Assembly: GCA_022710245.1 (NCBI GenBank)
Contig: JAKLHH010000312.1
Coordinates: 1 to 7,945 of the forward strand
Source of the DNA: Myxococcota bacterium
Lineage (GTDB): Bacteria > Myxococcota > Polyangia > GCA-2747355 > JAKLHH01
Length of the DNA: 7,945 nucleotides
Direction of reading: 5' to 3'
The notes below the pieces were generated by a model, which saw only the letters and a program-made list of their open reading frames with translations, did not search any database and had not been told where the DNA came from. Shown in pieces: positions 557 to 7,945 of the stretch. A program made the position numbers and the translations under genes. Each line of letters opens with the position of its first letter. Position 1 is the stretch's first letter.

Positions 557-1348
557 TCATCCGATCGAGTCGAGCGCCGCGCAGGCCTCCTCGACCGAGC
601 CGGTCACCAGCTCGTAACCTGGCGTCTTGCCAGCCGTCGCGAGGAGGATGGCCCGCGCCTCCTGGGTGGGTCGCTGGGCGCAGCTCCACAGCCGGCAGGT
701 GAGCTCGCCGGCGCTGATCCGCCGCAGGCCGCTCCCCGCGGCGCCGTGACCGATGAGGACGACGGCCGCCAGGGGCTGGGCGCGGTGCTCACGCTGGAGC
801 GGCGCCGGGTGGACGAGCGTGCCCCGCTCGGCGCCTGGCTCGGCGCGGATCGCGTACGGGCAGAGCTCGGCGCCGGGCGGGATCTCCGCGGCGGGATCCG
901 GCAGGGTGAGCGGCCGGGTCAGGCCACGCACGCTGGCCGCGCCGTCGATCAGGGCGAGCTCGTCGGTCAGGTAGCGTGCGCCCCGGCCGAGGAGCGCCAG
1001 CGCCAGCGTGGTCTTGCCCGCCCCCGACGGTCCGGCGAGGATCCAGGCCCCGCCTGGCCAGCCGAGCGCGGCCGCGTGGAGCGCGAGCCCCGGCGAGCGC
1101 GCCAGCGCCTGGTCGTAGAGGTCACGCTCGAAGACGGGGGCGAGGTCCCGCTCGTCGTCGACCACGCAGCGGAGCTCGTCACCGCGCTCGAGGCACGGCG
1201 GCCCGCCCGTCACGCGGTAGCGGACGGCCTCGCCGCCCTCGGGCGAGCCGTAGGTGGCGGTGAGGGCGCGCAGCGGCGGCGCCAGCTCGTCGGCCGCCAC
1301 CTCGAGGTGGACGTCGAGCTCGAGCGCCCGGAAGGCGGCGCGCCACAT
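557..1348 (-). CDS. HprK-like P-loop kinase of the peptide-modification operon
   Basis: A 263-residue protein related to HPr kinase/phosphorylase. Known relatives include HprK-related kinases found beside PqqD-like proteins, and lasso-peptide kinases that phosphorylate the precursor peptide. The N-terminal half (about 1-85) is poorly conserved. The kinase core begins with LALHAAAL (88-95), followed by a clear Walker A loop GPSGAGKTT (106-114) and YLTDELALID (126-135), whose acidic pair D129/E130 is placed like the conserved Asp after the P-loop in this family. It is shorter than classical HprK (about 310 residues), and I do not see the C-terminal signature needed for HPr phosphorylase activity, so regulation of a PTS system is unlikely. 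The ATG overlaps the PqqD-like stop by one base (TGATG), so translation is probably coupled. It is the last gene of the operon. The fold is well supported; the substrate is inferred, most likely the operon's own peptide or a partner. Confidence 0.75.
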   Translation of the reverse strand: MWRAAFRALELDVHLEVAADELAPPLRALTATYGSPEGGEAVRYRVTGGPPCLERGDELRCVVDDERDLAPVFERDLYDQALARSPGLALHAAALGWPGGAWILAGPSGAGKTTLALALLGRGARYLTDELALIDGAASVRGLTRPLTLPDPAAEIPPGAELCPYAIRAEPGAERGTLVHPAPLQREHRAQPLAAVVLIGHGAAGSGLRRISAGELTCRLWSCAQRPTQEARAILLATAGKTPGYELVTGSVEEACAALDSIG

Positions 1349-1623
1349 CAGCGTCCCCGCGCGTCCTCGAGCAGGCCGTGGGACGCGAGCTCCGCGACCA
1401 GGCGCTCCACGTCGGCCCGCGCCCGGGCCGGGTCGAGCTCCACGAAGGCCTCGCAGAGGAGGGAGGCCAGCTCGTCCAGCTCCAGCTCGCCGCCCGCGAG
1501 CTCCCAGAGGACGCCGCCCGTCGGGTTGAGCACCACCGCGCGCTCGCCGTCGGCGGAGAGCACCACCAGCTCGCCGTCGGGGAGCTCGCGGTGCGTGGCG
1601 CCGGCCGCCCGGCGGGGCCTCAT
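1348..1623 (-). CDS. PqqD-family peptide chaperone (RRE domain protein)
   Basis: A 91-residue stand-alone PqqD-like protein. Such proteins form a small winged-helix RiPP recognition element that binds a precursor leader and presents it to a radical SAM enzyme. The family pattern is plain: a beta-strand start GELVVLSADGERAVVLNPTGGVLWELAGG (17-45), then helices with ELASLLCEAF (51-60) and a final DVERLVAELASHGLLED (71-87). Length matches PqqD (about 90 residues). The start ATG overlaps the stop of the radical SAM gene by four bases (ATGA, 1620-1623), which fixes the start and excludes the longer upstream reading frame. Its position between the radical SAM enzyme and the HprK-like kinase recalls the HprK-related-kinase/PqqD pairs catalogued in other bacteria; membership in one named subsystem would need an HMM search. 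Confidence 0.85.
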   Translation of the reverse strand: MRPRRAAGATHRELPDGELVVLSADGERAVVLNPTGGVLWELAGGELELDELASLLCEAFVELDPARARADVERLVAELASHGLLEDARGR

Positions 1624-2774
1624 CGCGCGGCCTCGCCGAGCGCGGCGAGCGCGCAGGCGGTCAGGCGGCAGTCGAGGCAGGGGAGCGCCCGTCGCGCCTG
1701 CGCGAGCCGCGCCGCCGGGTCCTGCCCCGCCGGCAGCGCGGGCGCCGCGAGGATCGCGCGCAGGCTGCGCCCGCCGGCGACGCTCCCCAGCTGATCGCGG
1801 CGGTTGAAGATGCAGGGGTAGACCGCGCCGTCGGCGGCGACCGCGAGCCGGCCGCGGCGGCGCTCCATCCCGGGCGGCGCGGGCGGGGCGTCCGGCGGCA
1901 CGCTGGCGTCGGGCGGCTCGCTGGCGCGCGCGGGCGGGAGCGCGCCCTCGAAGAGCTCGCCGCGCCCCACCGCGGCGCTCCACCCCACGCCCACCGCCGC
2001 GAGGCCGAGCCCCGAGAGGAGCGCCTGAGTGGCGGCCAGGTCGCCCTCGTTCTCGCGCATCACGACGATGGCGGCGCGCGCCGGCAGCCCGCGCGCGAGG
2101 ACGGCCTCGATGGCGGCGAGGGTGCGCCGCTGGCTGCCCGGCGTGCGCGTGATGGCGTCGTGGACCTCGGCGCGGTGCGAGTAGAAGGAGAAGGCGAAGG
2201 CCGGGCGCAGCGCGGCCAGCTCGTCGAGGAGCGCGCCCTCGAGGAGGAGCCCGTTCGTGTAGAGCTCGCAGGCGAGGCCCCGCTCGCCGGCCCGCGCCGC
2301 CAGCGCGACGACGTCCTCGTGGAGGAGCGGCTCGCCGCCGGTGAGCTGCACGCGCTCGAAGCCGAGCTCGCGCGCCTCGTCGAGGAGCGCCTCGCAGCGG
2401 GCGCGGTCGAGGTGCGCCGAGGCCTCCGGGCTCGCCGAGGCGTAGCAGTGGACGCAGCGCTGGTTGCAGCGCGCGGTGAGCTCGAGGAAGAGCGTCTCGA
2501 AGCCCTCCAGCGCCAGCGCGCTCGCCGCGCTGAGCGGGAGCGCGGGCTCGCCGGCGAGGCGGGCGAGCCAGGCGCCGGCGGCGCCCTCGCCCGCGGCGGC
2601 CAGCGCCGGGCCGCGCTCGCCGCGGCTGAGCCAGCGCGTGAGCTCCTCCGCGAAGCGGCCGCCTGCGCGGAGCACCTCGCCGCTCGCCGCGTCGAGGAGC
2701 AAGAGCTCACCGTCGCGCCAGCTGGCCAGCGCCGCGCCGCGCGGGAGGATGCGGCCCTCGCGCGCCACGCTCAC
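1620..2774 (-). CDS. Radical SAM peptide-modifying enzyme (SPASM/twitch-like C-terminus)
   Basis: A 384-residue radical SAM protein. The N-terminal extension of about 90 residues contains DGELLLLDAASGEVL (21-35), loosely like a PqqD/RRE strand pair. The TIM-barrel core starts at FLELTARCNQRCVHCYAS, with the CxxxCxxC ligands C103, C107 and C110 binding the SAM-cleaving 4Fe-4S cluster and GGEP at 146-149 for SAM binding. The C-terminal part has VYPCIFNRR (C321), LGSV, then PCLDCRLTAC (C366, C369, C374). This is a reduced SPASM or twitch pattern likely to hold an auxiliary cluster, as in enzymes acting on RiPP precursors. I chose the GTG at 2774 because it overlaps the precursor stop (GTGA), a second GTG follows two codons later, and a longer frame to 2894 would run through the precursor gene. 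The reaction is unknown: thioether formation, epimerisation and other C-H chemistry are all possible. A Pro-rich linker lies at about 279-302. Confidence 0.87.
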   Translation of the reverse strand: MSVAREGRILPRGAALASWRDGELLLLDAASGEVLRAGGRFAEELTRWLSRGERGPALAAAGEGAAGAWLARLAGEPALPLSAASALALEGFETLFLELTARCNQRCVHCYASASPEASAHLDRARCEALLDEARELGFERVQLTGGEPLLHEDVVALAARAGERGLACELYTNGLLLEGALLDELAALRPAFAFSFYSHRAEVHDAITRTPGSQRRTLAAIEAVLARGLPARAAIVVMRENEGDLAATQALLSGLGLAAVGVGWSAAVGRGELFEGALPPARASEPPDASVPPDAPPAPPGMERRRGRLAVAADGAVYPCIFNRRDQLGSVAGGRSLRAILAAPALPAGQDPAARLAQARRALPCLDCRLTACALAALGEAAR

Positions 2775-3073
2775 GGCGGGTTCGGCTGCGCCGGGTTGCA
2801 CTGCGCGGGGTTGCAGCCCGGTCCGGGGTTGCAGGCGGCCGGGTGGCAGGGGTACGGCCCGCAGGGGTGCGGGTGGCAGGGCGCGGGCTTGCACTGGCTC
2901 GGCTGGCAGGAGACAGGTGGCGCGGCGTGGGCGTCCCTCGACGCGAGCAACGTGCCGATCACCGCGGGCGCCACGTAGACGCCGAGGCGAAGGAGCTTGC
3001 GCCTGGCGCGGGCGCGCGCGTCGAGGTGCTCCTCGGTCGCCCCCTCCTCCGGCCTCTCGTCACGTGTGGTCAC
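2771..3073 (-). CDS. Candidate precursor: signal-bearing C-x-P-x-x repeat peptide
   Basis: A small protein of 100 residues counted from a GTG at 3073. Residues 1-20 are acidic and Thr/Glu-rich. Residues 24-29 read RRKLLR, followed by a hydrophobic stretch GVYVAPAVIGTLLAS (31-45) and A-H-A (48-50), which resembles a twin-arginine signal peptide with a type I cleavage site. The tail (56-100) is built from units C-x-P-x-x: cysteines at 56, 61, 66, 71, 76, 81, 87 and 92, each with Pro two residues later, and a ninth unit where Cys is replaced by Pro (97). Position +1 is Q, K, H, G, H, N, N, N. There is no other recognisable domain. It is the first gene of an overlapping unit with radical SAM, PqqD-like and HprK-like genes, so it is the natural substrate candidate. 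No clear Shine-Dalgarno precedes the GTG; an upstream ATG at 3226 is rejected because it would overlap the divergent kinase gene. It could instead be a Cys-rich exported metal-binding protein. Confidence 0.72.
   Translation of the reverse strand: MTTRDERPEEGATEEHLDARARARRKLLRLGVYVAPAVIGTLLASRDAHAAPPVSCQPSQCKPAPCHPHPCGPYPCHPAACNPGPGCNPAQCNPAQPNPP
2774..2908 (-). repeat. Tandem C-x-P-x-x coding repeat (about 15-base period)
   Basis: The 3' end of the precursor gene repeats with a 15-base period: TGC, a variable codon, a proline codon, then two variable codons. Eight units carry Cys and a ninth carries Pro. One unit (the sixth, N-P-G-P-G) is one codon longer. The conserved points are amino-acid positions rather than exact DNA copies, since proline codons and flanking codons vary. 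That suggests selection on the peptide rather than a recent DNA duplication. Confidence 0.8.
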
Positions 3074-3188
3074 CAGTCGATGATACGCGCTCCGCGCGCG
3101 AGTCGGCAAGGCGCGCCGACCCGCACCGACCCGGCCCCGGCCCGCCCGACCCGAGCGGTAGAGTGGCAAATGGGACGCGGATGCGACT
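3074..3188. promoter_or_regulatory. Divergent promoter region with phased CCGACCCG repeats
   Basis: This 115-base gap must hold the promoters of the peptide operon (leftward) and the Ser/Thr kinase (rightward). It contains CCGACCCG at 3116, 3126 and 3146, with a one-mismatch copy CCGGCCCG at 3137, so the copies recur about every helical turn. There is also a perfect inverted repeat GTCGGC-N7-GCCGAC at 3102-3120. A weak -10-like TAGAGT (3159-3164) follows the repeats on the plus strand, without a good -35. High local G+C raises the chance of accidental repeats. Confidence 0.4.
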
Positions 3189-4628
3189 ATGATCGGCTCA
3201 CTCTCCATGGCAGCGTCGGATCCCATCGGGATGGTCCTGGAAGGGACCTACCGGATCGAGCGGATGATCGGGCGGGGCGCGATGAGCACCCTCTACGAGG
3301 CCTCGCACCTCCGTCTCTCGCGCCGCTTCGCGGTGAAGATCCTCTCGCCGTCGCTGGCCGTCCACGCGGAGGCGCTGGCGCGCTTCCGGCGCGAGGCCGA
3401 CGTCACCTCGGCGCTCGGGCACCTGAACATCCTCGACGTGGTGGACTTCAACCAGACCCCCGACGGGACGTCCTTCATCGTCATGGAGCTCCTCGAGGGC
3501 GAGGACCTCGGGCAACGGCTCGAGCGGGTGGAGCGGCTCGAGCTGCCGGCGGCGGTCTCCATCTTCCGCCAGGTCGCCTCGGCGGTGGCCGCCGCGCACG
3601 ACAAGGGCATCGTGCACCGCGACCTGAAGCCGCCGAACATCTATCTCTGCCGGCGCGCTGGCCGCGATGACTTCGTCAAGGTGGTCGACTTCGGCATCTC
3701 CAAGGTCCTCACCGAGGCGGAGATGACCCAGACCGACGTCATCCTCGGCAGCCCCGCGCACATGGCGCCCGAGCAGGCGGCGGGCCGCCCGTCCCAGGTC
3801 GACGCCCGCAGCGACGTCTACGCGCTCGGCGCCATCCTCTTCGAGATGCTGACCGGGCAGCCGCCGATCCTCGACGAGGCGCTCCCGGTCCTGCTGGAGA
3901 AGATCCTGCACGAGCCGGCGCCGCTCCTCTCCTCGTGCCGCGACGATCTGCCGGCCGAGCTCGACGCGGTGGTCGCGCGCGCGCTCGCCAAGGCCCGCGA
4001 GGAGCGCTTCCAGACCATGGCCGAGTTCGCGGCCGCGGTGGAGCGCGCGGTGGGCGGGTCGCTCGACGCGGCGGCCGCCGCCTTCGCCCTCGACGCGTGC
4101 ATCGGCTTCGAGCCGCAGCAGCAGGCCTCGGCGAGCGGTCTCTTCGCGGCGCGCACCGAGGTCAGCGAGCCGCCAGCCGGCTGGGATGTCTCGACGGAGG
4201 TCGAGCGGCCGACGGCCGTGGACCGCCCGGTCCGCAAGGTGCTCCCCTCGGTCGCCGAGGAGGTCGAGCCCGACGCGCTGACCCAGGTCGACGTGGAGCG
4301 CCCGACGGTGCCGAAGCCGCGCCCCGCAGCCGGGGCCAGCGGCGCCGGCGCCCCGTCCTCGCGTCCCGGCGGGCGGCTCCGGGAGGAGGCGGGCGGGCCG
4401 TCCTCGCGTCCGGCGGGGCCGCTCCGGGAGGAGGCAGGGGGCAGGAGGCAGCGCGGGGCGGGGGTCGCACCGCCCGCCGAGCCCGCGGAGCCCGATGAGG
4501 ACCTCGAGCCGCCGAGGCCGAGCGAGCGGCGCGACACCTTCGTGACGCCCTTCGCGATCGGAGCCGCCTGCAGCGCGGTCTTGATCGTGGCCGGCTTTCT
4601 GCTCCTGCGCCTGGCCGGGTGCACTTGA
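3189..4628 (+). CDS. Membrane-anchored Hanks-type Ser/Thr protein kinase
   Basis: A 479-residue serine/threonine kinase of the PknB/Hanks type. The kinase domain spans about 21-288: glycine loop IGRGAMSTLYEA (27-38), ATP-binding Lys50 in FAVKIL, partner Glu69, catalytic loop HRDLKPPN (143-150), DFG at 167-169 and MAPEQ (192-196). All catalytic residues are present, so it should be active; HRD with Arg before Asp suggests activation-loop phosphorylation. Residues 290-450 are a low-complexity Pro/Glu/Arg linker with TEVERPTAVDRP and TQVDVERPTVPKP and a 15-residue tandem repeat. A single membrane helix (about 453-475) ends the protein with only four residues outside, so it is a cytoplasmic kinase with a C-terminal anchor and no external sensor domain. 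The start is uncertain: ATG 3189 and the in-frame ATG 3207 both lack a clear Shine-Dalgarno. It is transcribed divergently from the peptide operon. Such kinases are abundant in Myxococcota; the substrate is unknown. Confidence 0.93.
   Translation: MIGSLSMAASDPIGMVLEGTYRIERMIGRGAMSTLYEASHLRLSRRFAVKILSPSLAVHAEALARFRREADVTSALGHLNILDVVDFNQTPDGTSFIVMELLEGEDLGQRLERVERLELPAAVSIFRQVASAVAAAHDKGIVHRDLKPPNIYLCRRAGRDDFVKVVDFGISKVLTEAEMTQTDVILGSPAHMAPEQAAGRPSQVDARSDVYALGAILFEMLTGQPPILDEALPVLLEKILHEPAPLLSSCRDDLPAELDAVVARALAKAREERFQTMAEFAAAVERAVGGSLDAAAAAFALDACIGFEPQQQASASGLFAARTEVSEPPAGWDVSTEVERPTAVDRPVRKVLPSVAEEVEPDALTQVDVERPTVPKPRPAAGASGAGAPSSRPGGRLREEAGGPSSRPAGPLREEAGGRRQRGAGVAPPAEPAEPDEDLEPPRPSERRDTFVTPFAIGAACSAVLIVAGFLLLRLAGCT
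4353..4442 (+). repeat. 45-base tandem duplication in the kinase linker
   Basis: Two adjacent 45-base copies (4353-4397 and 4398-4442) encode PSSRPGGRLREEAGG and PSSRPAGPLREEAGG, which differ at two residues. The copies lie in the disordered linker between kinase domain and membrane helix, keep the frame, and probably arose by a recent slippage or unequal exchange. Confidence 0.8.
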
Positions 4629-4888: not shown

Positions 4889-6268
4889 ATGAGCCCGGAG
4901 CTTGCGCAGGCCAGCCCCATCTACGTGGTCGGCCACAAGAACCCCGACACCGACTCGATCTGCGCGGCGATCGGCTACGCCTGGCTCCTGCGCGAGCGCG
5001 ACAAGGAGGACGCCCGCGCCGCGCGGGCCGGCCAGCTGAACCCGCAGTCGAGCTTCGCGCTGGCGCGCTTCGAGCTCGAGGCGCCCGTGCTCCTCGCCGA
5101 CGCCTCGCAGCGCTTCGCGGCGGTGGCGCGGCGGCTGCAAGCGCTGGGGCCGGAGCGGCCCCTGGCCGAGGCCTGGGCGCTCGCCGCGGCGAGCGGCCTG
5201 GTGGCGCCCGTCGTCGACGGGGATGGCCGGCCGGTGGGGCTGGTCACCGGGGCCAGCGTCTTCCGGTTCCTGACGGTGCAGCTCGCCGACCGGCTCGGCA
5301 TGACGCCCTCGGCGCTGGCCGATGTGCCGCTCGGGCGCGTGCTCGCCGCGCCCGCGGGAGACGCGATCGAGCGCGGCGTGCCCGCGTTCGAGGTGGGCGC
5401 CCGCATCCGCGACCACCTGCCGCGGATCCTGCGCGAGACGCAGGACACCTTCTGGGTGGTCGACGGCGACGGCCGATACCTCGGCGTCTGTACCAAGGCC
5501 GACCTGCTGCACCCGCCGCGGCACCGCCTGATCCTGATCGACCATAACGAGGCCGGCCAGGCCATCGGCGGGCTCGACGAGGCCGAGCTCCTCGAGGTCC
5601 TCGACCACCACCGCCTGGCGAACCCGCCGACGCACATGCCGATCGCCTTCCACGTCGACCCGGTGGGGAGCTCCTCGACGCTGGTCGCCGAGCGGGCCAT
5701 GCGCTTCGGTGGGCAGGTGCCGCGGCCGATCGCCGGCGCGCTCCTCTCCGGGCTCCTCTCGGACACGCTCTGCCTGCGCTCGCCGACCACCACCGATCGC
5801 GACCGCGTGGCCGCGATGCAGGTCGCGGCCTGGGCCTTCGGCGATCGCAGCGACCCCTACGGCGCCATGCTCGAGTACGGCAAGGAGCTCCTCCGCGCGG
5901 GCGCCAGCCTCGCCGGGCGCGACGCCGCCGCGATCGTCACCGGTGACTACAAGGAGTACAGCTCGGGCGGGCTCCGCTTCGCCATCGCCCAGGTGGAGGT
6001 GACCGACCTCGCCGAGGTGGAGGGCCGCGTGGACGAGCTGCGCGGCGCGCTGCGCGAGCTGGCGGAGCGCACCGGCCACGCCTTCGCGCTGCTCATGGTG
6101 ACCGACATCGTCGGCGGCATGAGCCGCCTCATCACCGGCGGCGAGACGCGCTTCCTCGAGGGGCTCCCCTACCAGCGCCACCCCGACGGGACCTACGACC
6201 TGCCGCCGGGCGTGGTCTCGCGCAAGAAGCAGCTGCTGCCTGCGCTGCTGGGGCTGCTCGAGCGGTAG
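4889..6268 (+). CDS. ppaC: CBS-domain family II (Mn-dependent) inorganic pyrophosphatase
   Basis: A 459-residue DHH-family pyrophosphatase that hydrolyses PPi to two phosphates in the cytoplasm and pulls biosynthetic reactions forward. Metal-binding motifs are GHKNPDTDSI (15-24, ligands H16, D20, D22), DHN (218-220), DHH (239-241) and D292 in LLSDTL. The C-terminal DHHA2 domain carries the substrate-binding SRKKQ (444-448). Two CBS domains interrupt the catalytic domain at about 65-133 and 145-210, recognisable by APVVDGDGRPVGLVT and WVVDGDGRYLGVCTKADLL. In known CBS-pyrophosphatases these bind adenine nucleotides and adjust activity; I see no DRTGG domain between them. AGGAGG (4878-4883) ends five bases before the ATG and fixes the start. 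It appears to be a single-gene unit closed by a hairpin with a T run at 6270-6335. The symbol follows usual family naming. Confidence 0.93.
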   Translation: MSPELAQASPIYVVGHKNPDTDSICAAIGYAWLLRERDKEDARAARAGQLNPQSSFALARFELEAPVLLADASQRFAAVARRLQALGPERPLAEAWALAAASGLVAPVVDGDGRPVGLVTGASVFRFLTVQLADRLGMTPSALADVPLGRVLAAPAGDAIERGVPAFEVGARIRDHLPRILRETQDTFWVVDGDGRYLGVCTKADLLHPPRHRLILIDHNEAGQAIGGLDEAELLEVLDHHRLANPPTHMPIAFHVDPVGSSSTLVAERAMRFGGQVPRPIAGALLSGLLSDTLCLRSPTTTDRDRVAAMQVAAWAFGDRSDPYGAMLEYGKELLRAGASLAGRDAAAIVTGDYKEYSSGGLRFAIAQVEVTDLAEVEGRVDELRGALRELAERTGHAFALLMVTDIVGGMSRLITGGETRFLEGLPYQRHPDGTYDLPPGVVSRKKQLLPALLGLLER

Positions 6269-6697: not shown

Positions 6698-7945
6698 TCA
6701 CCCACAGGGAGAGGGAGAGGCCGAGCGCGCCAGGAACCTCCCTGCCCCTGGCCTGCCGAGGAACCGCCCGCCCTCCACGATCAGCTCGCCGCGCAGGTAG
6801 ACGCGCTCGGGCCCGCCGCGCACCGTGCGCCCCTCGTAGAGGCTGTAGTCGACGCGCATGTGCAGCGCGCGCTGCGAGAGGTCGACCTCGCGCCCGGGGT
6901 CCCACACCACCACGTCCGCGTCGGAGCCTGGCGCGAGGACGCCCTTCCTCGGGTAGAGGCCGAAGAGGCGCGCCGGCGCGGTGGCGACCGCGTCGACGAA
7001 GCGCGGGAGCGACAGGCGCCCCTCGACGACCGCCTGGTGCAGCAGCAGGAGCCGCGTCTCGATGCCGGGGAGCCCGTTCGGGATGCGGCGGAAGTCGCCG
7101 CGGCCGAGCTCCTTCTGGTCCTTCATGCAGAACGGGCAGTGGTCGGTCGATACCATCTGCAGGTCGTTGGTGCGCAGCGCCTGCCACATGTAGTCCTGGT
7201 GGCCGTCCTCGCGGGAGCGCAGCGGCGTCGAGCACACCCACTTCGCGCCCTCGAACGCCCCCCACTCCTCGCTCGTCGCTCCGAGCTGCTCCTCGAGCGA
7301 CAGGTACAGGTACTGCGGGCACGTCTCGCCGAAGACGTTCTGACCCTTGTCGCGCGCCCAGGCGAGCTGCTCGACGGCCTGCTTCGCGCTCACGTGCACC
7401 ACGTAGAGCGGTGCGCCGGTGAGGTTCGCGAGCATGATGGCGCGGTGCGTGGCCTCCTCCTCCATCTGCCAGGCTCGTGCGATGCCGTGGTAGAACGGGT
7501 CGGTCTTGCCCTGATCGACGAGCTGGGCGGCCAGCGCGTCGATCACCGGGCCGTTCTCAGCGTGCATCATGGTGAGCAGTCCGGTCTCGCGCGAGACCTG
7601 CATCGCCTTGAGGATCTGCGCGTCGTCGGAGTAGAAGACGCCCGGGTAGGCCATGAACAGCTTGAAGCTCGAGATGCCCTCGTCGATCAGCTTCGGCATC
7701 GCGGCGAGCGCGGCGTCGTCGACGCCGCCGATGATCTGGTGGAACCCGTAGTCGATCGCGCAGTTGCCGGCGGCGAGGTCGTGCCACTTGCCGAGGCCCT
7801 CGAACACGTCGCCGCCTTGGTTCTGGATGGCGAAGTCGATGATCGTGGTGGTGCCGCCGGCCAGGCCGGCGCAGGTGCCATCGTAGAAATCGTCCACCGC
7901 CACCGTGCCCATGAAGGGCAGCTGCATGTGGGTGTGCGGGTCGAT
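6698..7945 (-). CDS. hydA: D-hydantoinase / dihydropyrimidinase (N-terminus cut off by the window edge)
   Basis: A cyclic-amide amidohydrolase that opens the ring of dihydropyrimidines or 5-substituted hydantoins to N-carbamoyl amino acids, acting in pyrimidine or hydantoin breakdown in the cytoplasm. 415 residues are visible, and roughly 55-60 N-terminal residues lie past the right edge. Counting from the edge, the binuclear metal site is complete: H4 and H6 in DPHTHMQLPF, the carboxylated Lys95 in SFKLFMAYPG, H128 in MMHAENG, H184 in VVHVSA and D268 in STDHCPF. NGLPGIETRL (about 289-298) is the usual substrate-loop motif. The C-terminal beta-sandwich part ends GRFLARSASPSPCG. Dihydropyrimidinase and D-hydantoinase cannot be separated by eye, so the symbol is a family label. 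Allantoinase is less likely given the close match to the hydantoinase motifs. It converges on the pyrophosphatase gene; its upstream neighbours, which might show the pathway, are not visible. Confidence 0.9.
   Translation of the reverse strand: MDPHTHMQLPFMGTVAVDDFYDGTCAGLAGGTTTIIDFAIQNQGGDVFEGLGKWHDLAAGNCAIDYGFHQIIGGVDDAALAAMPKLIDEGISSFKLFMAYPGVFYSDDAQILKAMQVSRETGLLTMMHAENGPVIDALAAQLVDQGKTDPFYHGIARAWQMEEEATHRAIMLANLTGAPLYVVHVSAKQAVEQLAWARDKGQNVFGETCPQYLYLSLEEQLGATSEEWGAFEGAKWVCSTPLRSREDGHQDYMWQALRTNDLQMVSTDHCPFCMKDQKELGRGDFRRIPNGLPGIETRLLLLHQAVVEGRLSLPRFVDAVATAPARLFGLYPRKGVLAPGSDADVVVWDPGREVDLSQRALHMRVDYSLYEGRTVRGGPERVYLRGELIVEGGRFLGRPGAGRFLARSASPSPCG

Follow-up and report, generated by a model that had tools for sequence, protein, structure and literature searches.

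In lasso peptides, which belong to the ribosomally synthesized and post-translationally modified peptides (RiPPs), a YxxPxL motif in the leader is needed for recognition by the B1 protein, and the kinase BsfK phosphorylates Ser3 of the lasso precursor with the aid of its B1 protein, as given in the available passages of PMC10368454. The genes psmN and bsfN accompany lasso kinases. PsmN is said to extend the phosphate. Some RiPP leaders are at the same time export signals, and Sec signal peptides are described as a rare feature of bacterial RiPPs in the passages seen of PMC12452194, in which the word "Tat" does not occur. The stretch studied here, called the window at its full length of 7,945 nucleotides, is contig JAKLHH010000312.1 of a Myxococcota bacterium. 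Its minus strand carries a four-gene cassette between 557 and 3073 that probably belongs to an uncharacterised RiPP family, in which a lasso-type module of RiPP recognition element (RRE) protein, kinase and nucleotidyltransferase is joined to a radical S-adenosylmethionine (SAM) enzyme acting on Cys-x-Pro, with export by the twin-arginine translocation (Tat) system. The cassette is more than a chance arrangement, as all eight core cysteines of its peptide stand in C-x-P and the genes recur in distant bacteria.

The four genes run from 3073 down to 557 and overlap end to start in the open reading frame (ORF) listing of the window. The first (2771..3073, GTG start) encodes a precursor peptide of 100 amino acids, recognized as an ORF and by its relatives in other genomes. 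It is followed by a radical SAM enzyme of 384 amino acids with C-terminal auxiliary-cluster cysteines (1620..2774, GTG start; PF04055, 7.3e-22), a PqqD/RRE protein of 91 amino acids (1348..1623, ATG start; PF05402, 1.4e-14) and an HprK-like kinase of 263 amino acids (557..1348, ATG start), identified by NCBIfam, motif conservation and model fold. The junctions are GTGA, ATGA and TGATG. An earlier sequence-only reading of the window had given these four ORFs with their positions, strand and stop/start overlaps correctly, and its family assignments were confirmed in Pfam and NCBIfam, where the kinase matches HprK-related kinase A at 1.4e-11 with 44 bits, below the cut-off of 200. The contig ends 556 bases past the kinase gene. 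A promoter-like site is located at 3080-3109 on the minus strand (9 of 12; shuffles mean 0.0). Only 6 bases separate the end of its -10 hexamer from the GTG start codon of the precursor gene, and the precursor mRNA may be leaderless. No non-coding RNA model matched the window at gathering scores.

A search of the 7994 best-sharing candidates gave 97 homologues of the radical SAM enzyme at E <= 1e-3, and 41 of these were aligned as profile A1. A scan of species genomes with A1 gave 259 relatives. The 80 best loci were retained, with L001-L060 treated as the family and L061-L080 as controls. A precursor was present beside the radical SAM gene in 49 of the 60 family loci. Profile searches of all ORFs, with each partner counted anywhere in the locus and with profiles built from the same loci, found the PqqD protein in 54, the kinase in 52 and an NTP_transf_5 nucleotidyltransferase (PF14907) in 41 of the 60 family loci, and none of the three in the 20 controls. 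Many loci are close relatives of one another, so the rows are not independent. These counts support the earlier proposal of a peptide-modification pathway. That proposal would have suffered from homologues consistently lacking the peptide; the 49 loci hold a precursor of the same family, and two more (L012 and L038) are cut off inside one. Among the remaining loci, L041 is also cut off, L042 has a run of N at this place, the peptide was not found in L050, L053 and L058 although PqqD and kinase are present, and L047, L052, L055 and L056 lack a detected peptide, PqqD and kinase together. Control locus L072 holds a family precursor on a piece ending inside the radical SAM match, and was still kept among the 20 controls. 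The precursor counts leave out two proteins outside the search pattern (L003 8928-9221 and L028 4341-4538, both with all Cys in C-x-P) and the fused precursor of L054 (ending 4790), and a false match (L042 6852-7028) was removed.

By record titles, the relatives belong to Myxococcales, Kofleriaceae, Deltaproteobacteria, Mariprofundaceae, Ghiorsea, other Zetaproteobacteria and Planctomycetota, with one gammaproteobacterium. Counted by whole genomes at 1e-50, the prevalence is at least 3 of 195 (group of G004) and at least 23 of 200 (group of G008), query genomes included; these figures are lower bounds because scoring was limited to 9 or 10 first-look candidates in each genome. Two or three tandem precursor genes are present in the cassettes of L003, L009, L026, L028, L031, L043, L054 and L059. 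The commonest neighbour family is NTP_transf_5, in 15 of 85 and 8 of 63 scanned proteins drawn from 184 listed neighbours. With rebuilt profiles, an ATP-grasp-like gene was found in 14 and a major facilitator superfamily (MFS) transporter in 12 of the 60 family loci, and neither in the controls or the window. The ATP-grasp-like gene, which has weak ATP-grasp Pfam matches, stands beside the kinase on the opposite strand; the loci concerned are L005, L011, L016, L018, L021, L024, L026, L032, L033, L036, L038, L040, L051 and L060. Further tailoring by these two proteins is possible in the zetaproteobacterial type.

The core region of the window peptide (2774..2923) contains eight cysteines, each followed by x-Pro; shuffled cores gave a mean of 2.7, and 0 of 5000 shuffles reached 8. 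The same rule holds for all 113 cysteines in 22 non-zetaproteobacterial cores, the window included, where 2000 shuffles gave a mean of 27.7 (standard deviation 4.2, maximum 43). The middle residue is variable (among 108 in 21 cores: N 30, G 20, P 12, M 11, A 10, the rest being eleven other residues), and the Cys-Cys spacing is 5 in 43 of 87 intervals (21 cores). Of the C-x-P-x-x repeat proposed earlier, the C-x-P part therefore stands, and the fixed five-residue unit does not. In each of the 34 zetaproteobacterial-type precursors there is a short element of the kind CMPSACQP, CAPCFCAP or CCPC. The division into the two types was made by locus, by the authors, and the mature part was taken from 17 or 18 residues after the leader Tyr, an earlier Cys in L002 not being counted. 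Counts of Ser/Thr, Arg/Lys and spacing draw on a set of 55 precursors, and those of RR and AxA on 56, L034 being added. Pfam matched the peptide only to a keratin model, and below threshold. A wider search found 164 proteins homologous to the precursor; among the 120 matches listed, none has a Pfam domain, and 48 have short cores, 5 of these with all Cys in C-x-P. The predicted N-terminus of one radical SAM homologue (P0003) consists of short repeats, as if an upstream C-x-P precursor were read in another frame, and a 424-amino-acid ORF of the window shows the same.

In the radical SAM enzyme, the cluster motif CNQRCVHC (C103-C110; 2445..2468) supplies C103, C107 and C110, which are kept in 58 of 58 aligned enzymes. 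The auxiliary-cluster cysteines C321 (1812..1814) and C366 and C369 (1668..1679) are kept in 56, 55 and 55 of the 58, so that both the CxxxCxxC motif and the extra C-terminal Cys noticed earlier proved to be conserved. Besides Radical_SAM, Pfam gave a weak SPASM match (0.01, below cut-off). SkfB is the best solved-structure match by profile, Foldseek and VIA-align at 17-19% identity, the VIA-align rows spanning mainly residues 82-377. The N-terminal domain (residues 1-80; 2535..2774) has four strands followed by helices in the AlphaFold secondary structure and appears RRE-like by topology only. A role in anti-phage defence was considered and rejected, as the PADLOC viperin matches extend at most over residues 97-242, the radical SAM core common to such enzymes.

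From the fold kinship with SkfB (sporulation killing factor), which forms thioethers, a Cys thioether is tentatively put forward as the product of the radical SAM enzyme, at slightly under an even chance. It is rather unlikely that the same RiPP logic serves another radical SAM chemistry, such as epimerisation, a C-C crosslink, or a change on Pro or on the middle residue of Cys-x-Pro; the cysteines would then be left as thiols or disulfides, perhaps binding metal outside the cytoplasm. In favour of this, PqqE, SuiB and the epimerase EpeE share the fold and rank not far below SkfB, and Pro is constant in C-x-P while the middle residue varies. However, Cys is the constant residue common to both core types, and SkfB leads in all three comparisons.

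The precursor leader has a conserved shape, in which RRxLL is followed by YxxPx[ILV, rarely M] and usually AxA, with a hydrophobic stretch between RRxLL and AxA. A leader with RRxLL, a hydrophobic stretch and AxA is a twin-arginine signal in form. In the window, these elements are RRKLL (residues 24-28; 2990..3004), YVAPAV (residues 33-38, with V at position 38; 2960..2977), which is the proposed PqqD binding site, and AHA (residues 48-50; 2924..2932), a signal peptidase site proposed by the AxA rule only. All 28 aligned precursors have R24, R25, L28, P36 and C66, and Y33 is conserved in at least 90% of them. With a pattern that also allowed RK, every one of 56 precursors proved to have RR. 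It was also found in all 120 listed of the 164 homologues, where five residues were allowed at each place, as was Tyr, where four were allowed; this set is not independent evidence because the profile used to gather it describes the same leader. A match to the NCBIfam model "formate dehydrogenase region TAT target" (0.0016) was obtained for one of the 28 precursors. TatC is present in 34 of 36 host genomes of relatives, the window's own genome not being among them. AxA is found in 39 of 56 precursors by the simple rule, and Arg or Lys occurs 8-19 residues after Tyr in 42 of 55. In the window, AHA ends 18 residues from Tyr33 on; the length from Tyr to AxA is 17 in 9, 18 in 10, 19 in 9, and 14-16 or 21-24 in 11 of the 56 precursors. 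Judged from these motifs, the lasso-kind Tyr-x-x-Pro-x-[ILV] sits inside the putative signal peptide, and in many members its distance to the predicted cut is similar. The leader thus looks like a Tat-like signal that contains the YxxPxL-type motif recognised by lasso B1 proteins, and Tat export of the peptide is quite likely.

The earlier suggestion that a signal sequence replaces a transporter and a protease fits the invariant RR, the hydrophobic stretch, the frequent AxA and the distribution of TatC; it is now narrowed to a conserved twin-arginine leader. With Tat export and a signal peptidase cut, no dedicated transporter or protease would be needed. The Tat reading is not secured for every member, because 13 of 55 precursors lack Arg or Lys before the predicted cut and 17 of 56 lack AxA. 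The same precursors would fit a Sec signal or membrane anchor as leader, with RR kept only for PqqD binding, and the signal peptides of other RiPP precursors are of the Sec type in the passages seen of PMC12452194. This explanation is unlikely, given that RR is retained throughout the 56 and 120 precursors though the patterns allowed other residues, and given the TAT-target match and the TatC counts.

The kinase and the PqqD protein connect the cassette with phosphorylated lasso peptides. The kinase model has a predicted local distance difference test score (pLDDT) of 93.9 and a PEPCK/HprK fold. His91 (1076..1078) is conserved in 51 of 51 kinases, as is Lys112 of the P-loop G106-T113 (GPSGAGKT; 1010..1033); in the proposed catalytic pair Asp129-Glu130 (959..964), Asp is kept in 50 and Glu in 46 of the 51. 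The spacing of H, P-loop GxxGxGK[ST] and D-D equals that of BsfK, as compared by spacing and not by direct alignment with a lasso kinase sequence. When solved structures were ranked with the PqqD family profile, the lasso protein TbiB1 came first (7.2e-12). Together with the leader motif, these similarities make the lasso-peptide hint of the sequence-only reading stronger than stated there. A lasso B2 protease or asparagine-synthetase-like cyclase was not found among the families matching at least 2 of the 85 or 63 neighbour proteins, nor in 8 scanned ORFs of the window. The cassette does not count as a lasso-peptide cluster, but behaves as if a lasso-type RRE/kinase module had been coupled to a radical SAM enzyme.

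By analogy with these clusters, the peptide is probably phosphorylated. Ser or Thr stands directly ahead of the first Cys in 15 of 21 C-x-P-type and 19 of 34 zetaproteobacterial-type precursors, where 2000 permutations averaged 3.2 and 5.4 and went no higher than 10 and 13, respectively. In the window this place is Ser55-Cys56 (2906..2911), the proposed phosphorylation site at the first core Cys. A kinase acting on HPr in metabolic regulation, or on the PqqD protein, and merely carried in the operon would suit the general HprK/PEPCK fold and the scores below every curated NCBIfam cut-off. It is nevertheless improbable, as the kinase accompanies the family in 52 of 60 loci with the lasso-kinase spacing, a nucleotidyltransferase partner is found in 41 as in lasso clusters, and Ser or Thr precedes the first Cys.

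A short precursor with a conserved leader and a variable core lies beside modifying enzymes in the 49 loci, which is the general pattern of a RiPP, and the peptide is very likely the substrate of the cassette enzymes. The linkage and conserved motifs are observed and the folds predicted, while the binding, the kind of bond, the phosphorylated residue, the succession of the steps and the export are inferred. In the proposed pathway, PqqD would bind YxxPx[ILV] of the signal-type leader and present the core to the two enzymes. The radical SAM enzyme, with its SkfB-like auxiliary Fe-S cluster, would modify the C-x-Pro cysteines, most likely into intrapeptide thioethers. The HprK-like kinase would phosphorylate Ser/Thr, most likely the one that directly precedes the first core Cys, which is Ser55 of the window peptide, and the nucleotidyltransferase, where present, may extend the phosphate in the manner reported for PsmN. 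The Tat system would then export the peptide, and signal peptidase would remove the leader. Leader binding by PqqD may delay export until modification is complete. In its fullest form, which is proposed only tentatively, one stretch of sequence would be both the Tat signal and the lasso-type RRE site. PqqD would then act as a Tat proofreading chaperone that releases the peptide only after the radical SAM enzyme has made the Cys-x-Pro crosslinks and the kinase, often with the nucleotidyltransferase, has placed a phosphate or phosphosugar beside the first crosslink.

Several observations weigh against this pathway. C-x-P is not universal, because only 84 of 412 cysteines in the zetaproteobacterial-type precursors have it. 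Glu takes the place of the final Asp of the lasso kinase motif in 46 of the 51 kinases. A profile search of the window contig gave 0 matches to the nucleotidyltransferase. For the N-terminus of the radical SAM enzyme, hhalign gave a probability of PqqD homology of 0.5, compared with 0.4-1.7 for three control segments. To these are added the 13 and 17 precursors without Arg/Lys or AxA and the 2 of 36 host genomes without TatC. The weakest alternative, a radical SAM enzyme making a small molecule or cofactor beside a co-regulated, exported Cys-rich protein, would explain zetaproteobacterial precursors of up to 130-160 amino acids with 13-15 Cys, large for a RiPP, and the retrieval of BlsE, MoaA and viperin by the enzyme profile, but is very improbable in view of the stop/start overlap and co-occurrence of the genes and of a lasso-type RRE protein with its recognition motif in the leader.

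If true, the RiPP pathway proposed here would join three fields that have been studied separately, namely lasso-type RRE/kinase modules, radical SAM peptide chemistry and Tat export. The predictions that follow from it are sharp (recognition through Tyr33 and Pro36, phosphorylation of Ser55 and one modification per C-x-P), and dozens of natural homologues exist, many of them in Zetaproteobacteria. It also offers a testable answer to how a signal-bearing RiPP precursor stays in the cell until its modification; for MNIO RiPPs, this question is posed in the passages seen of PMC12452194.

The genes around the cassette are of other kinds. The start of a chain-length determinant gene (Wzz, PF02706, 1.3e-7) lies at 2-439 on the minus strand, 117 bases beyond the kinase gene, and runs off the contig. 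A Ser/Thr protein kinase (3189-4628, plus strand; PF00069, 1.5e-41) is divergent from the precursor gene, and is followed by a DHH-DHHA2-CBS protein (4889-6268, plus strand), which from this make-up is presumably a family II inorganic pyrophosphatase. A dihydropyrimidinase-like amidohydrolase is encoded at 6698-7927 on the minus strand. Those of its close homologues that bear a name come from actinobacteria (Microbacterium sp., 80% identity), unlike the cassette relatives, and one 97% homologue is found on another contig (7921 bases). It may come from horizontal transfer or from a chimeric contig; G+C is without a clear break.

Several named systems were tried for the cassette. The scores were 44 and 15.3 bits for HprK_rel_A and PqqD_rel_X of HPr-rel-A (cut-offs 200 and 35), 15.2/16.8/55.9/72.4 bits for ScmC/ScmD/ScmE/ScmF of SynChlorMet (125/100/400/400), and 56.5 and 15.4 bits for the radical SAM and PqqD models of GeoRSP (400 and 100). 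Filing under any of the three was rejected because the scores are far below the cut-offs. Family members give the same mixed weak matches, ScmC with 9 of 36 kinases and ScmD with 13 of 19 PqqD proteins. A description of the cassette was not found in the open-licence literature, nor was anything joining HPr kinase with PqqD, radical SAM and RiPP, an HprK kinase with radical SAM and RiPP, or SynChlorMet with radical SAM, or anything on radical SAM RiPPs of Zetaproteobacteria or Tat-signal Cys-rich radical SAM RiPPs. Among the matches listed, open-licence papers on radical SAM/PqqD RiPPs do not mention twin-arginine, and those matching twin-arginine and RiPP leader peptides concern, by title, lanthipeptide display and a lantibiotic synthesis complex. 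The RRE-Finder paper (PMC7470986) mentions neither "HPr" nor "kinase".

Compared with known systems, the phosphorylated lasso clusters (bsf of Bradymonas sediminis, paeninodin and pseudomycoidin) share with the cassette a separate RRE (B1/PqqD) protein, the HprK-like kinase spacing, often a nucleotidyltransferase, and the YxxPxL-type leader motif. In place of a recurring lasso protease and cyclase, the cassette has a radical SAM enzyme, a signal-type leader and a Cys core. SkfB provides the closest solved structure to the window enzyme, which has conserved C-terminal cysteines in common with SkfB and other sactipeptide radical SAM enzymes; the window enzyme, 17-19% identical in the structure-based and profile alignments, is however below all NCBIfam cut-offs shown and has separate PqqD and kinase partners. 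Judged by model names, HPr-rel-A, SynChlorMet and GeoRSP also combine HprK-related and/or PqqD and/or radical SAM proteins, but all window proteins are far below their curated cut-offs. Bufferins and other MNIO RiPPs, as well as lipoprotein-type DAG-RiPPs, likewise have Cys-motif precursors with an export signal as leader, according to the parts seen of PMC12452194 and PMC12636315. In contrast to the Sec or lipoprotein signals and MNIO enzymes described there, the cassette combines a twin-arginine leader with a radical SAM enzyme.

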